Shown here piece by piece: positions 2,321-48,277 of a stretch of DNA of 64,000 bases. Source of the DNA: an uncultured Bacteroidales bacterium (lineage in GTDB: Bacteria > Bacteroidota > Bacteroidia > Bacteroidales > F082). Each line of letters begins with the position of its first letter. Within the stretch, counting starts at the first letter, position 1. The notes below the pieces were generated by a model, which saw only the letters and a program-made list of their open reading frames with translations, was not told the DNA's origin and did not search any database. The stretch lies in contig CAMJRR010000003.1 of NCBI GenBank assembly GCA_946408345.1, forward strand, positions 114,219 to 178,218, written 5' to 3'. The position numbers and the translations under genes were made by a program.

Positions 2321-2332
2321 TTTTATATTGTT

Positions 2333-2374
2333 GATTTAAATATTCAAAGATTTAAAATTCAAAGATTTAAAAGA
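2333..2374. repeat. AT-rich 7-8 nt word array between rimP and nusA, overlapping rimP stop
   Basis: GATTTAAAT ATTCAAAG ATTTAAAA TTCAAAG ATTTAAAAG. Confidence 0.7.
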
Positions 2375-2822
2375 TTATTGCGGGTTTGACTTCCACTTTA
2401 TTGCGTTCAAAGAACAGGTTGACAGGGTCTTCAATAGGTTTTTTCTTTGAGGCTTTCTTGGGTGCGGGGGCAAATTCCACTTTCTCAGCATCGAAGCTCA
2501 CCAGTTTGCCTTGCATCTTGCCCGTCTCTTTCGTCTTCACTTCCACATCTTTGCCCACATATTTCTGCAACTGACGGTCCAGCTTCAAAGCACCCGAGAG
2601 ACCCCACGAGAACACGCTCAGCTCATAGTCTTCTACATCACGGTCAAGTTTCTCATTGATGTAACGGCTCAATTCGGCGCAATGGTCGATGTTGACCGCC
2701 GTGTCGGAGTCCACATAGACCTCGATCACGTTGTTGGGCTTCACCTTCACTTCCACGAGGAAGCGGTCGGTGTTTGCGAGGGATTCTTCGCAGAGGGTTG
2801 CTACTTGTTCTTTGTTAATCAT
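2367..2822 (-). CDS. rimP: Ribosome maturation factor RimP
   Basis: 151 aa, RimP-like sequence, upstream of nusA. Confidence 0.9.
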   Translation of the reverse strand: MINKEQVATLCEESLANTDRFLVEVKVKPNNVIEVYVDSDTAVNIDHCAELSRYINEKLDRDVEDYELSVFSWGLSGALKLDRQLQKYVGKDVEVKTKETGKMQGKLVSFDAEKVEFAPAPKKASKKKPIEDPVNLFFERNKVEVKPAIIF

Positions 2823-2870
2823 TTAAAATTCAAAGATTTAAAATTCAAAATTTAAGATTCTAACTTCAAA
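2821..2870. repeat. AT-rich 15 nt (7+8) word array abutting the rimP start codon
   Basis: ATTTAAAATTCAAAG ATTTAAAATTCAAAA TTTAAGATTC. Confidence 0.7.
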
Positions 2871-20198: not shown

Positions 20199-20337
20199 TT
20201 TGTTGATTGTTGATTGTTTAATTGTTTAATTGTTGGCTACTGGCTATTGGTCTCTGGCTACTGGCAGCTTCAACGAAAAGAAAAACCTTACTTTTTCATT
20301 ATGCTGCCAGAAGCCAAAAGTCAGAAGCCAGCAGCAA
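20199..20337. repeat. Degenerate 7-8 nt tandem arrays, with two inverted 5x7 nt arms
   Basis: TTGTTGA/TTGTTTAA units, then TGGCTAC TGGCTAT TGGTCTC TGGCTAC TGGCAGC (20234-20268); GCTGCCA GAAGCCA AAAGTCA GAAGCCA GCAGCAA (20303-20337). Confidence 0.8.
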
Positions 20338-20395
20338 AAATAATTTCATCAAAATGTAACTTTTTCGCCAAATCTCCGTATTACTTTCGTAAAAG

Positions 20396-20896
20396 ATGGA
20401 CAGAAGTCAGTACAACCAGTGCGTGGAGCAATATGCCGACCGGCTTTTCCGCTTCGCGTTCTCGAGCCTCCGCAACCGCGAGCAGGCCGAGGACGTGGTG
20501 CAGGAGAGCTTTGCCCGCGTTTGGGAGAAAGTCAAGACGATAGATTTTGCGAAGGCGAAATCCTACCTCTTCACCACCGCCCACCATGCCATGATTGATG
20601 AAGTCCGTCAGCGACAACACTTTGTGAGCACCGAAGACTACGCGCCCACCGAAGAGAAAGCCAATGGAATCCCCTACCCTGACGTCAACGATATCCTGCA
20701 CAAGGCCTTAACCGACCTTCCCGAGGCACAACGCAACGCCTTGCTGCTGCGCGACTATGAGGGATACAGCTACCAGGAAATAGGCGACATCACGGGGATG
20801 AGTGAGTCACAAGTGAAGGTGAACATCTTCCGCGCCCGCACTGCATTGAAAAACAAACTGAAAAGCATCGACAACCTAATTGACATAGCGCCATGA
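20396..20896 (+). CDS. ECF-type RNA polymerase sigma-70 factor
   Basis: FAFSSLRNREQAEDVVQESFARVWEKV...YSYQEIGDITGMSESQVKVNIFRARTALKNKL. Confidence 0.9.
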   Translation: MDRSQYNQCVEQYADRLFRFAFSSLRNREQAEDVVQESFARVWEKVKTIDFAKAKSYLFTTAHHAMIDEVRQRQHFVSTEDYAPTEEKANGIPYPDVNDILHKALTDLPEAQRNALLLRDYEGYSYQEIGDITGMSESQVKVNIFRARTALKNKLKSIDNLIDIAP

Positions 20897-21800: not shown

Positions 21801-21859
21801 GCAGAATACACAGAAATCGCAGAACTATGAGAATATTCCCATGATTCTGCGATTTCTGC
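21801..21859. repeat. 9 nt-period inverted array between convergent genes
   Basis: cagaaatcgcagaa (21811-21824) is perfectly complementary to ttctgcgatttctg (21845-21858); 9 nt units GCAGAATAC ACAGAAATC GCAGAACTA. Confidence 0.8.
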
Positions 21860-21883
21860 GTGCAATAATATCAGCGTGCAAAA

Positions 21884-23851
21884 TCAGAAATTGATGCTGA
21901 ACCCGAAGTTCGCCGTATGGCAGGTCGGCGCATGAGCCTCATCGAAAGTGGGCAGCAGGTTGTATTGGGCAAAGAAGCCTAGGTTATTGCCTCCAATACG
22001 CAATGTGGCATCCAGCTTGAATGGATTCACATAATAGTCGCTATGCACCTTGTTCACGTCTCCGCTTCGGAACACGATTTTGGTCCAAGTGTCGACACGC
22101 AAGCCACCTGTGACGCCAGCGGCAATATAGAATCGGCGGGTAGGACGCACTTCTATCATCAAAGGAGCCTGGACATACAACACACCGAGTTTACTTCTCT
22201 TCACGACAGACACTGCAGGGTCAATACACTCAACTTCAAGATGATTCTCACCCTTGGTCAGACGTACCGGGTTGTTGAAACTATAGTTGTTCCATCCCAA
22301 ACCAATACCCGTATAAAGACCAGCCGTATGACGACGGTCGAAAGCAATGCCCACATCGGCAATATTGAAATTGAACACCCAACTTCTCATGGGACGCAAC
22401 TCCAAATCATTATTACCCGTTGAGTTAGAGCCCATCAACATATTCAAGCCTGCTTCAAAGCCGTTCCAGTTGGCATCGTAAAGGAGGTTCTTTTTTACGG
22501 GACGCTTGTCTTTAGGTTTGTCTACCTTTGACGATGATGTTTCCCCGAAATTCGATTCAGCGACATTCAAACCATCGACTCTCAAGTCACCACTTCCCAG
22601 CACTGTGGCTTGCAACACGTTGCATCTGCCCTGAAGGATGATGTCACCCGAACCATTCAAGACAACATGGACGGTATCGTAATCCAACTTCATAACCATA
22701 TCACCAGAGCCACTATTATAAATATTGAGGTAGTCACCTTTTATAGTACCCTTACTGACGACATCAGCCGACGAAAGCAATTGGATATTCTCGAGTTGGG
22801 AGACTTCAACTTCATAGTCGTCCGAGCTCGAAAGGAGAAGCAGTTCCGACTCCAGTCGATAGTCGGAGACCTCCTTACCCTCTTTCTTCAACGAAAAATG
22901 GCCTGGGGTCTGGCTGATAACGACATCGCCCGAACCCGTTACCCGAATAATGCGAACTGGGGAATCATCTTTTTTCGCAGGACGAGAGTTATTCGGCATA
23001 TCATATTTTTTTTCAAACTCTGCGCCCCACTGTTCCATCTTTCGGCCCCATTCTTCCATATCGGCACCCCATTGTTCCATGTCTTGCTCAAACTTTTCCC
23101 AGTCTACCGAATCGGAAAGTTGTTGGAGGTTTACCCCAAGTTCGCGCATCAGTTCTTTAAATTGAAGCGTATCAAGAGGCTCATAACCTGCTTTGACGTT
23201 GAAAGAAGAGTCCCAAGAACGGTTCGACTCGGCCTCGAAGAAAGGAGCGGCGTTATTAACCAACCCATTCAGGAAATTCCGTTTAGAATCGGTAAGTTCA
23301 TCATCGATATTAATAGCCATGTTCCACTTATCGCCACTTTTCTCGACCAACACCATATAATTCAGGTTACTTGCATTCACTTTACCCAAACTCTTCACCT
23401 CGCTGCAAAAGACGTTACAGTCGCCGAGAAGAATCACATCGCCAGTCCCGCATGACCGGACATAGATGTTGTTATAGCCGACCTCAAGGCTTAATACGCC
23501 AGTACCCGTTTTGTTGATGGAAAGATTCTCACCTTTCAACTGACCCTTTGATCTGACTCCCGCCGTACCCAAAACCTTCAAATAAGCCAGATTTTGAAGA
23601 GTTAACTCACGAGCCCCCGTACCTTCAAGATACAAAACGCTATCTTCAACACGACACTTGGGATAGTGATGCCCATAATCATTAATCGTCAGTTTGTCAC
23701 CTTGTTTAAGCCACACACTGCCAGTGCCACTTACCACCAAAGTGTTGATTTTACTACCATCCCCATTGGGTGTAGGGATTGGTTTGTCTTGCGCCTTCAC
23801 GCTTCCGAAGGCCAGCAGCAGCATCGCTGCAAAAATCAATCGTTTTTTCAT
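21884..23851 (-). CDS. GIN-domain (DUF2807) putative adhesin-like exported protein
   Basis: 655 aa; repeated GSGDV/GSGDIILQGRCNVLQATVLGSGDLRVDGL motifs; C-terminal outer-membrane-like domain. Confidence 0.8.
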   Translation of the reverse strand: MKKRLIFAAMLLLAFGSVKAQDKPIPTPNGDGSKINTLVVSGTGSVWLKQGDKLTINDYGHHYPKCRVEDSVLYLEGTGARELTLQNLAYLKVLGTAGVRSKGQLKGENLSINKTGTGVLSLEVGYNNIYVRSCGTGDVILLGDCNVFCSEVKSLGKVNASNLNYMVLVEKSGDKWNMAINIDDELTDSKRNFLNGLVNNAAPFFEAESNRSWDSSFNVKAGYEPLDTLQFKELMRELGVNLQQLSDSVDWEKFEQDMEQWGADMEEWGRKMEQWGAEFEKKYDMPNNSRPAKKDDSPVRIIRVTGSGDVVISQTPGHFSLKKEGKEVSDYRLESELLLLSSSDDYEVEVSQLENIQLLSSADVVSKGTIKGDYLNIYNSGSGDMVMKLDYDTVHVVLNGSGDIILQGRCNVLQATVLGSGDLRVDGLNVAESNFGETSSSKVDKPKDKRPVKKNLLYDANWNGFEAGLNMLMGSNSTGNNDLELRPMRSWVFNFNIADVGIAFDRRHTAGLYTGIGLGWNNYSFNNPVRLTKGENHLEVECIDPAVSVVKRSKLGVLYVQAPLMIEVRPTRRFYIAAGVTGGLRVDTWTKIVFRSGDVNKVHSDYYVNPFKLDATLRIGGNNLGFFAQYNLLPTFDEAHAPTCHTANFGFSINF

Positions 23852-23895
23852 TTTGTTGAAGTTTAAGTTGTTGTTCGTATTACAAATTATTGACT

Positions 23896-23972
23896 CAAGA
23901 CTGGGGACTTGGGACTTAAGACTTGATACTTTGTCCTCTGTCCGTTGTCCTTTGTCTTCTTTCCTCTGTCAA
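23896..23972. repeat. Array of 11 degenerate heptamers in perfect register
   Basis: CAAGACT GGGGACT TGGGACT TAAGACT TGATACT TTGTCCT CTGTCCG TTGTCCT TTGTCTT CTTTCCT CTGTCAA. Confidence 0.85.
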
Positions 23973-24011
23973 CATCAGTAATACGGAGAAAGGGGGGAAA
24001 AGTTACAACCC

Positions 24012-26288
24012 TCACTCAAAAAAAGCAAAAAAATAGCATTTGCGCTCGGCGGTGAGGGTGTCGCCTTCGGCCAGTTCCAACTTCACATACACCTTCTTCA
24101 AGTCGGCCTTGCGCAAACATTCACTTAAACCTTCCACGACGAATTTACGATTCTCGTTGGCCTCCAACCGCACCTTCATTTTTTGCTCAAACAGCGGGCT
24201 GTCTTCAAGGTCGCACACCGCGACGGACAGCGTGCCATCAATGTTGCGAAGTAGGTCGGAAGTGACAAAAACTCCATAGTCTTTCTTGTCGAGACTTAAA
24301 AGCACCGGGGCATAGAGGGTCTTCAGTCTTTCGTGGAACACTTTGGGGTTGCCGTAATAGTCGATGGACGACCAGGAAGTCACGGGCCAAGCGTCGTTGA
24401 GCTGCCAATAGAGCGTGCCCATGTTGTAGGGCTTCGCCGTGCGGTGCGCCTCAGTCGCGACTTCCATACCGTAGGCTTGCGAAAGTTGGCTTAAATGCAC
24501 GTATTCTTCAAAGTCTTTCGGCTGAATGTTAGGGTAATAACGTTGGATGAAATCGTCGATTTGTCGGGTGCCACGGGCGTGTTTTTGGTGTGCTGCAATC
24601 ACCTCGGCATCCTTGCTCAACGCCTCGCCTTCTGCTATCTTCAGCAAAGTCGAATAATCGGGATAGCTTTGGTAGCCGTACTCGCTGTTGAAACGGCCCA
24701 CCTTCTCGCGGTACATCTCATAAGGCTGCTCGCCCCACCAAACGCCCCAATAATGAACATCGCCTTCGGTCAGACTCTCGGGGCGGCCCCAGCCTTTCGA
24801 GGGCGAGCTGGGCCAATAAGGTCGCGTGCCGTCAAATTTCGCAACAGCTTGAGGCAGAATATTTTCAAACAATCGGTCATAGCCGGCTTTGATGGCTTTG
24901 TCGTCTTCTTCGCTCCAACCCAATGACTGCTGCCAGCCCCAGTTGTAGTAGCCCTCCGAAATCTCGTTGCCGCCACACCACAAGGCCAACGACGGATGCG
25001 AAGCCAAACGTTTCACCTGCTCCTCCGCCTCGATTCGGGCGTTTTCGAGGAAAGCCTCGTCGTAGGGATACATCGTTCCTGCATACATGAAGTCCTCCCA
25101 AACCAAGATGCCATATTTGTCGCAAAGCGTGAAAAAGTCGTCAGAGGGATAAATGCCGCCGCCCCACACTCGCAACATATTGAAATGAGCGTCTTTGGCT
25201 TGCTCCAAGAGTTGAATCGTATGATCAACATCATTCCAGGTCTCAATCATCTCCTCCGGAATGTAGTTCGCGCCTTTGGCATAGAATGGCACACCGTTCA
25301 CCTTAAAATAGAACGCCCGCCCGATGCTGTCGGGTTCATCCACCATCTCGAAGGTTTTAATACCAGACCTTATTTTCTTGAAATCCAAAACCTTATCCCC
25401 GTCTTTTAGAAGAACATCAAAGACATAAAGCGGTTGTTCGCCCATCTCGTTGGGCCACCACAATTCTGGATTTAAGATTTCAAATTTAAAGATTTCAGAT
25501 TGGAAGCCCCTATCCAAATGAACATTTTTCTCACTGCTTCTCTCACCATTGACATAGATTTCCGCCACGTAATTTCCTTCAGCCTTGCTTTCCACATCAA
25601 GGCATAAACGCATCGTAGCCTTCTCGCTATCAAGGTTTTCTGTGACAATATATGCATTTTGCAATTTCGCATCCGACCAACCGATCAATTCCACCCGTTT
25701 CCAAATGCCCACATTCTTGTACTTCGGTGCCCAGTCCCAGCCATGCTGGTAAGGTGCTTTGCGCGAAACGGCATATTTCTCGGGCAATCGAGGCTGATGT
25801 TGCTCATACAAAGCCAGTTGTGTGCTGTCATAACGAAGGAAATGCACTTCCAAAAGGTTGTCTTTCTTTTTCAGCAAGTCTTTCACATCGTGTTTCCAAA
25901 CGCGGAATTGGTTGTCAGCAAAGAAGAGTTTTTCGCCGTTCAATTTCACTTCGGCGTATGTATCGATGCCATCAAATTCCAATTCAACCACTTGTTTTTC
26001 AAGCAAATCCTTGCTCGCATCGAAATGCAAGGTGTAATTCCAAGGATGGTCTGAAATCCAGAGCAATTGGTTTTCCACCGTGCCGAGATAAGGATGGAGA
26101 ATCAGGCCGTTGTCATAAAGGCTCTGCTGCACCACAGAGGGCACATCGATCTGCATATTAATATCTAAGGTGTCGCCCGTGAGCGTCCAGCCTTGGTTGA
26201 GGAGTTGCACAACGACGTTTTGCTTTTCAACTTGTTGACACGCTGTAAAAGCGATTATCAGGAGAATTAAAGGAAGTAGTTTTTTCAT
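24012..26288 (-). CDS. Glycoside hydrolase family 2, beta-mannosidase
   Basis: NMLRVWGGGIYPSDDFFTLCDKYGILVWEDFMYAGTMYP, LWCGGNEISEGYYNWGWQ, FNSEYGYQSYPDYSTL; lipobox IAFTACQQ. Confidence 0.92.
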   Translation of the reverse strand: MKKLLPLILLIIAFTACQQVEKQNVVVQLLNQGWTLTGDTLDINMQIDVPSVVQQSLYDNGLILHPYLGTVENQLLWISDHPWNYTLHFDASKDLLEKQVVELEFDGIDTYAEVKLNGEKLFFADNQFRVWKHDVKDLLKKKDNLLEVHFLRYDSTQLALYEQHQPRLPEKYAVSRKAPYQHGWDWAPKYKNVGIWKRVELIGWSDAKLQNAYIVTENLDSEKATMRLCLDVESKAEGNYVAEIYVNGERSSEKNVHLDRGFQSEIFKFEILNPELWWPNEMGEQPLYVFDVLLKDGDKVLDFKKIRSGIKTFEMVDEPDSIGRAFYFKVNGVPFYAKGANYIPEEMIETWNDVDHTIQLLEQAKDAHFNMLRVWGGGIYPSDDFFTLCDKYGILVWEDFMYAGTMYPYDEAFLENARIEAEEQVKRLASHPSLALWCGGNEISEGYYNWGWQQSLGWSEEDDKAIKAGYDRLFENILPQAVAKFDGTRPYWPSSPSKGWGRPESLTEGDVHYWGVWWGEQPYEMYREKVGRFNSEYGYQSYPDYSTLLKIAEGEALSKDAEVIAAHQKHARGTRQIDDFIQRYYPNIQPKDFEEYVHLSQLSQAYGMEVATEAHRTAKPYNMGTLYWQLNDAWPVTSWSSIDYYGNPKVFHERLKTLYAPVLLSLDKKDYGVFVTSDLLRNIDGTLSVAVCDLEDSPLFEQKMKVRLEANENRKFVVEGLSECLRKADLKKVYVKLELAEGDTLTAERKCYFFAFFE
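25470..25503. repeat. AT-rich 7-8 nt word array lying in-frame inside the beta-mannosidase CDS
   Basis: ATTTAAG ATTTCAA ATTTAAAG ATTTCAG ATTGG; similar words to intergenic arrays at 2.3 and 2.8 kb. Confidence 0.6.
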
Positions 26289-26302
26289 TTTGAGTTTTTT
26301 TG

Positions 26303-26400
26303 GCACGCAGAAATCGCTGAATTTTATGAACCTACCGGACGCCTATTATTGGTCGCTTCGCGCTTCTGCGTATTCTGCGTATTCTGCGTATTCTGCGTGA
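26303..26400. repeat. 9 nt tandem repeat (TTCTGCGTA)x4 with opposed CACGCAGAAATCGC arm
   Basis: 26364-26399 is four 9-mers; 26304-26320 is the inverted-type word. Confidence 0.8.
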
Positions 26401-27186: not shown

Positions 27187-27230
27187 TTGAAATTGTTGAA
27201 GTGTTGATTGTTGAATTGTTGAATTGTTGG
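27187..27230. repeat. Degenerate (A)TTGTTGA 7-8 nt array between divergent promoters
   Basis: ATTGTTGA AGTGTTGA TTGTTGA ATTGTTGA ATTGTTGG. Confidence 0.75.
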
Positions 27231-46166: not shown

Positions 46167-46222
46167 CGCAATAAAAAACGATTGTTTACGTATTAAAAAA
46201 CGGCTGCCGCAGTGTGACAGGC

Positions 46223-46261
46223 CAACAATCAACAATTCAACAGATCAACAATTCAACAAAA
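46223..46261. repeat. Degenerate CAACAATT 7-8 nt array abutting the exbB start codon
   Basis: CAACAAT CAACAATT CAACAGAT CAACAATT CAACAAAA then ATG at 46263. Confidence 0.8.
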
Positions 46262-48154: not shown

Positions 48155-48162
48155 GAGAAATA

Positions 48163-48258
48163 TGGAATTATGAATGTGAAATGCTGAATGACGCGAAGCG
48201 ACGCTAGTCTTAGCCTCATTCAGCATTCATCATTCAGCATTCATCATTCAGCATTCAT
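48163..48258. repeat. Heptamer array CATTCAG/CATTCAT x6 with opposed ATGAATG TGAAATG CTGAATG arm
   Basis: 48217-48258 = six heptamers (14 bp x3); inverted-type heptamers at 48163-48190. Confidence 0.85.
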
Positions 48259-48277
48259 CATTATTAAATAATCGCCT

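Follow-up and report, generated by a model that had tools for sequence, protein, structure and literature searches.

We examined an array of short degenerate repeats in the gap separating two minus-strand genes, one for a GH2 glycosidase and one for a DUF2807 protein, in a 64,000-nucleotide stretch of DNA (the window, meaning the whole stretch analysed) from an uncultured Bacteroidales bacterium, an order to which its gene content and promoter style also point. The locus comprises the following features.

21884-23851, minus strand: downstream gene, encoding a DUF2807 (head GIN) domain protein (ORF, Pfam PF10988)
23876-23985, no strand assigned: whole hairpin with outer stem CGTATTAC (23985-23978 minus) / GTAATACG (23883-23876 minus) (folding)
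23892-23930, no strand assigned: GACT arm of the hairpin, GACTCAA GACTGGG GACTTGG GACTTAA GACTTGA TACT (sequence, folding)
23896-23972, no strand assigned: the array as reported, 11 degenerate heptamers, 5 of GACT type followed by 6 of GTCC type (sequence, lag-7 score, TRF)
23931-23972, no strand assigned: GTCC/GTC arm, inverted relative to the GACT arm, pairing mainly through GAC/GTC cores with the linkers mostly unpaired (folding)
23978-24006, minus strand: probable ECF-sigma promoter GTAACTTTT-N12-CGTATTAC, directly upstream of the hairpin (exact bipartite motif search)
24012-26306, minus strand: upstream neighbour, glycoside hydrolase family 2 / beta-mannosidase-like, whose orthologues locate the site in relatives (Pfam, orthologues)

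A sequence-only reading of the window had split the 77 nt at 23896-23972 into 11 heptamers, and the split proved exact, with the words as quoted. Scoring 45.9 bits (23892-23970), the array is the top lag-7 segment of the whole window; 64 kb of shuffled sequence yields 0.4 lag-7 segments scoring more than 14 bits. TRF reported period 7 in both halves, plus period 21. In the broad sense the array is therefore an intergenic heptameric tandem repeat, with 7-nt units far above chance between genes. Its words are close to unique: among 81 genomes GTCCNYTGTCCNYTGTCC was found in this genome and G001 only, essentially no further copies of the array's words occur in the genome, and the second BLAST match was the promoter motif rather than an array.

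The same reading had described two halves of opposite polarity. The halves are indeed inverse, and they fold back on each other into a long, imperfectly paired hairpin (-32.2 kcal/mol and z -4.76 for 23877-23986 on the minus strand, with 1 of 200 shuffles equally stable; -34.3 kcal/mol with the full outer stem on the same strand). What had been taken as perfect register across a polarity switch is better explained as the two arms of this hairpin. The 8-nt inverted CGTATTAC/GTAATACG at the base is a single case, seen at the array hairpin at 23876-23985 only. As a candidate intrinsic terminator the structure had no T-run 3' of its arms, the minus strand going on as AATAATTTGTAATACG. Rfam gave no family match over the array, sub-threshold matches included.

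The hairpin lies 45-121 nt upstream of the DUF2807 gene start. The motif that precedes it, GTAACTTTT-N12-CGTATTAC, occurs three times in the 3.07 Mb assembly (23978-24006, minus; 20356-20384, plus; contig C8:61679-61707) and not at all in the reversed control. The copy at 20356-20384 precedes the window's own ECF sigma gene (20396-20896). Because the 12-nt gap is constant and one copy stands before an ECF sigma gene, the motif is probably an autoregulated ECF promoter, and its three copies probably mark a small ECF regulon under its own control, with the DUF2807 gene among its members. Since the hairpin follows directly after CGTATTAC, the -10 of this probable promoter, it would begin at or beside the probable transcript start.

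Orthologous gaps in G003, G007 and G012 read '...CGTATTACGTTTGTTGATAAGAA(A/G)AACAACAAAC..ATG' without an array, and those of G004 and G008 are likewise array-free. Because the gap is empty in several related species and the array sits exactly after the promoter's CGTATTAC, comparison of the orthologous sites shows that it was gained in this lineage as an insertion, placed in what would be the 5' leader of the DUF2807 gene. No target-site duplication was seen on comparison with the empty sites. In G002 (L005) and G017 (L030) a different palindromic element of ~170 nt, reading TCATTGC(G/A)GGCTTTGACCCGC(A/G)ATCTCC..., occupies the identical point after CGTATTAC, which has thus been the target of two different insertions. 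This element, with TCATTGCGGGCTTTGACCCGCAATCTCC, was also observed upstream of rimP in G002 (L214).

The sequence-only reading had proposed a genome-wide comparison of lags against shuffled intergenic sequence. We carried this out on 1.258 Mb of the genome (about 41% of the assembly; 654 gaps, 134 kb intergenic), counting segments of at least 20 bits. The excess was specific to the step, with 73 intergenic segments at lag 7 compared with 1.1 in shuffles (maximum 2) and 28 at lag 8 compared with 0.7. Lags 4, 5, 6, 9 and 13 gave 0, 0, 0, 1 and 0 segments and hence no excess, lag 11 gave a smaller one (8 versus 0.6), and the excess at lags 14, 15 and 21 reflects multiples of the basic step. Arrays were present in 88 of the 654 gaps, where shuffles gave 2.4. 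Selection for helical spacing, which had been put forward as one cause, is not supported: lag 10 yielded just 3 segments versus 0.5 in shuffles, and a lag-21 excess is what three heptamers produce. Several arrays are AT-rich, as low-complexity composition or chance would have it, but a ~66-fold lag-7 excess over composition-preserving shuffles, with none at lags 4-6 and 9, leaves that explanation a negligible probability.

The pattern was replicated in 744 kb from eight genomes of the same genus, with 38 segments at lag 7, 11 at lag 8 and 0-3 at lags 4-6 and 9-13, and the class was found in all same-genus genomes sampled. Eight other families of the order gave 0-1 lag-7 segments per genome (8 genomes, 33-40 kb each); two further genomes yielded too short a sequence for a verdict. 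In our genome, convergent gaps held fewer arrays than expected (2 versus 10.5, p 0.0012); the same-genus relatives did not reproduce this depletion (3 versus 4.5).

The sequence-only reading had listed further arrays across the window. Those at 2.3, 2.8, 20.2, 27.2, 46.2 and 48.2 kb have period 7 or 8 and belong to the class:

2321-2366, minus strand: TTGAATC/TTAAATC leader-type array in the rimP-nusA gap, in the same sense as nusA
2821-2870, minus strand: TTGAATC/TTAAATC leader-type array upstream of rimP
20200-20340, no strand assigned: compound of a TGGCT/AGCCA heptamer hairpin and a CAACAATT leader array, in the gap that separates lgt from the ECF sigma gene
27191-27229, minus strand: CAACAATT 8-nt leader-type array, sense to a minus-strand CutC gene
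46217-46259, plus strand: CAACAATT 8-nt leader-type array, directly upstream of a MotA/TolQ/ExbB gene
48155-48277, no strand assigned: insertion of a GAATG/CATTC heptamer hairpin that separates a stop codon from a Mur-ligase start

Two entries dropped out. The 26.3 kb array is a perfect 9-mer (TTCTGCGTA x 3.9), and lag-9 arrays were rejected as class members on their genome-wide count (1 versus 0.8); the supposed array at 21.8 kb is a 14-bp inverted repeat, CAGAAATCGCAGAA...TTCTGCGATTTCTG. Words of TTCTGCG type at 21808-21860 (the inverted repeat) and 26364-26398 (the 9-mer) apparently belong to an element distinct from the heptamer class.

Comparison of orthologous gaps shows that the sister arrays, too, have been gained and lost. 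The compound at 20200-20340 is also present in G002 and absent from G003, G012 and G007. The mur hairpin stands between TAA and ATG in this genome and G002, and at the same site in G003, G007, G012 and G010 the genes lie 1-2 nt apart (G012 and G007 read TAACAATG). Between this genome and G002 (L257) the loop-proximal words of the mur hairpin differ, GCTGAATG..CATTCAGC versus GCGGAATG..CATTCCGC, in a paired change, and the loops differ as well. Across syntenic gaps of three species, an array was found in both genomes in 10 cases, in our genome only in 16, in the other only in 2 and in neither in 55, the own-only count being inflated by anchoring on own gaps of at least 40 nt. Own-only gaps were longer by a median of 65 nt, compared with 0 for array-free gaps.

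Two kinds of word family recur among the arrays: hairpins with a fixed order of arms, to which the array at 23896-23972 belongs, and unpaired sense arrays just before start codons. Arm order was conserved 27:2 for the hairpin kind in this genome and 8:0 in relatives. The families GGGACTACG, TGGCTAC, TCAGCAA and GAATGCT gave 3:0, 5:0, 13:2 and 6:0, respectively, nearly always with both arms present, and TGGCT hairpins have the loop-closing GGCAGCT/AGCTGCC in common. Leader-type families sit about 25-35 nt upstream of start codons and were sense rather than antisense 46:9 in this genome and 18:3 in relatives. These families are unpaired and AT-rich, with sense counts of 29:8 for TTGAATC (p 7.5e-4) and 17:1 for CAACAATT (p 1.4e-4). 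The word lists were drawn up after the first 858 kb had been viewed, which makes the relatives the fair test; there TTGAATC gave 11:1 and CAACAATT 7:2, and sequence of this genome added once the pattern had emerged gave 7:4 and 8:0.

Hairpin folding was rejected as a general hallmark of arrays: 19 array gaps and 17 control gaps of 75 fell below z -3. Array gaps fold no better than others because of the AT-rich kind, which lacks folding. We likewise rejected the idea that one arm is a simple fold-back copy of its partner, because the linkers of the two arms show no mirroring (mean permutation p 0.70), and a fixed core with a free linker is weak as a general rule, reaching p < 0.05 in just 5 of 31 arrays.

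The class extends beyond the order. In a scan of GTDB genomes for (GACTNNN)5, the 80 matches listed comprised 29 from Bacteroidota, 27 from cyanobacteria and 24 from others, as assigned by title. Near these listed arrays, which were themselves excluded, further lag-7 arrays occurred at 25 per 100 kb in cyanobacteria, 5.5 in Bacteroidota and 8.2 in others, compared with 0-1.5 per 100 kb at control lags 4, 5, 10, 11, 13 and 17. At cyanobacterial loci adjoining (GACTNNN)5 arrays the lag-7 class is equal to or stronger than that of this genome. Two-armed degenerate GACT hairpins were found in Mucilaginibacter (L150), a Falkowbacteria MAG (L142) and a cyanobacterium (L140). CpG is avoided in the arrays of this genome (rho 0.29 versus 1.00) and of cyanobacteria (0.26 versus 0.89; L074-L149). 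The vocabulary of our arrays overlapped that of cyanobacterial arrays in 0.628 of windows, compared with 0.403 expected from composition-matched background (difference 0.224, 95% 0.181-0.268); part of this overlap may be explicable by CpG avoidance alone. It is a long shot that the arrays of both Bacteroidota and cyanobacteria are the work of a cell machine with an intrinsic 7-8-nt step, dedicated or incidental (a polymerase/repair complex or templated enzyme), drawing on a restricted, CpG-poor vocabulary common to the two phyla. Contigs predicted to be viral also carry (GACTNNN)5 arrays, in at least 120 stretches.

Short tandemly repeated repetitive (STRR) sequences of cyanobacteria are intergenic tandem heptamers with several words per genome. 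The sequence-only reading had rightly named them as the nearest analogue, and the cyanobacterial loci scanned are rich in lag-7 arrays. The likeness to STRR, taken here by description, lies in intergenic tandem heptamers with many words per genome; the difference is that our units are degenerate and many form two-armed hairpins or strand-oriented leaders. The GGGNATC and GGGGA(C/T)T heptamers of Xanthomonas and Nostoc are degenerate, dispersed in non-coding DNA and sometimes inverted in pairs near ORFs (Rehm et al. 2015, PMC4692102). Our arrays resemble them in having degenerate heptamers with fixed and free positions, a non-coding location and inverted pairs. GGGNATC is, however, one G-rich word with proposed G-quadruplexes and a preference for four units (PMC4692102), whereas many words occur per genome here and the array at 23896-23972 holds only two G-runs of at least three (GGGG once and GGG once), short of four tracts.

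TAACTGA direct repeats are reported from Beggiatoaceae, from cyanobacteria and from five Bacteroidetes; in the principal genome of that study most of them closely precede a start codon and read forward, and indels between two close Cyanothece strains are mostly in 7-nt steps (MacGregor 2015, PMC4679880). This is a single nearly invariant word with one inverted repeat only and no hairpin class (PMC4679880). The 7-nt units, and the forward orientation near start codons, are shared with our leader class; the array at 23896-23972, in contrast, is a two-armed hairpin that has no single orientation and does not contain TAACTGA, and many words occur here. As proposed for TAACTGA repeats in Beggiatoaceae, our arrays could be selected regulatory elements, with a protein or RNA binding units spaced 7-8 nt apart in leaders. 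Their sense orientation near start codons, the like placement of TAACTGA repeats (PMC4679880) and the compensatory change at the mur hairpin between this genome and G002 all agree with such selection. We nevertheless consider it improbable, as presence at a given gene varies even among close species, words differ widely and arm linkers are not mirrored.

That unrelated words argue against copying, as the sequence-only reading had it, did not survive the wider census: 1.26 Mb contains recurring families with fixed arm order and near-identical copies. The arrays at C2:103721 and C4:36444 have 109 nt at 88% in common with the same order of variants, and their flanks and downstream genes are unrelated. 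Matching between array gaps extends well past single words. These observations are consistent with non-autonomous mobile elements, that is MITE- or REPIN-like hairpins moved whole by a transposase, in which the heptamers are internal structure that decays and re-amplifies. Arm order fixed inside families, the recurrence of the hairpin plus CAACAATT array compound at several loci and also in G002, the near-identical copies between unrelated flanks and the unrelated palindromic element at the exact same insertion point in G002 and G017 would all follow. We nonetheless judge this explanation somewhat unlikely. Transposons of independent origin would not account for a 7-8-nt step shared by families that have no sequence in common, and arrays built of other words in cyanobacteria and further phyla keep to that step too. 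We found no target-site duplication, common ends or enzyme that would account for dispersal.

Like the arrays, REP/REPIN sequences with their RAYT (Y1) transposases are short dispersed intergenic hairpins of fixed structure. REP arms, however, are not heptamer arrays, and RAYT-type genes of the genus carry their own, different REPs. The RAYT-type Y1 transposase gene of this genome (L281, C8:58035-58379) has CATCCC..GGGATG palindromes on its flanks, and Y1 genes across the genus are flanked by ordinary REPs (GCATCCC..GGGATGC, GCGTGTC..GACACGC and similar), with other REP types in other relatives. As the flanking palindromes are not heptamer arrays, RAYT/REPIN mobility was rejected.

Alternatively, arrays might originate purely in place by slippage or misaligned repair, with recurring words owed to a shared sequence preference only. 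Step specificity agrees with this, as do the near-uniqueness of the words at 23896-23972, CpG avoidance in this genome and cyanobacteria, and the drift of words along single arrays with register kept (GAATGTA to GAATTTT at C1:291292). The fixed order of hairpin arms and the ordered variant strings common to distant copies make it rather unlikely.

Our preferred reading, to which we assign a probability of about 0.45, is that the array is a degenerate-heptamer hairpin insertion of a genus-wide class with a 7/8-nt step, produced by stepwise duplication and by dispersal of finished arrays. Against it stand the near-uniqueness of this array's words and the failure to find target-site duplications, common ends or an enzyme for dispersal. 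Because unrelated words and distant phyla have the 7-8-nt step in common, it most plausibly comes from the way arrays are made; slippage or templating, as first suggested, is a possible source of the 7-nt unit. Finished arrays would also have to travel, because arm order is fixed and copies are ordered. Replication or repair would create arrays and alter their length by duplicating or slipping 7-8 nt at a time, and ready-made arrays would then be copied into new gaps. They would be retained wherever translation initiation, which in Bacteroidales works without Shine-Dalgarno pairing, can still use the leader. Bacteroidetes have no Shine-Dalgarno sequences, and their initiation is tuned by mRNA structure and by bases near the start (PMC6847099); this would let array DNA build up in leaders and would filter its orientation. 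At the extreme 5' end of an ECF-driven transcript the array hairpin would tune stability or translation, and any such effect on expression is probably a side effect, not the reason for its existence.

Heptameric intergenic repeats are already known in bacteria (PMC4692102, PMC4679880). New here, with no counterpart found in the literature searched, is that a single Bacteroidales genus holds a system of many words and two architectures for which empty orthologous sites exist. The detailed accounts of heptameric repeats that we found each treat essentially one word, whereas here there are dozens in one genus with a step of 7-8 nt. Empty orthologous sites, together with nearly array-free families of the same order, make the question of why seven testable by genome comparison. 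The richest genome seen was G009 of the same genus (L297 = C33, L296 = C1), with ~30 lag-7 and 23 lag-8 arrays per 100 kb, among them long GGTGACTT 8-mer arrays.
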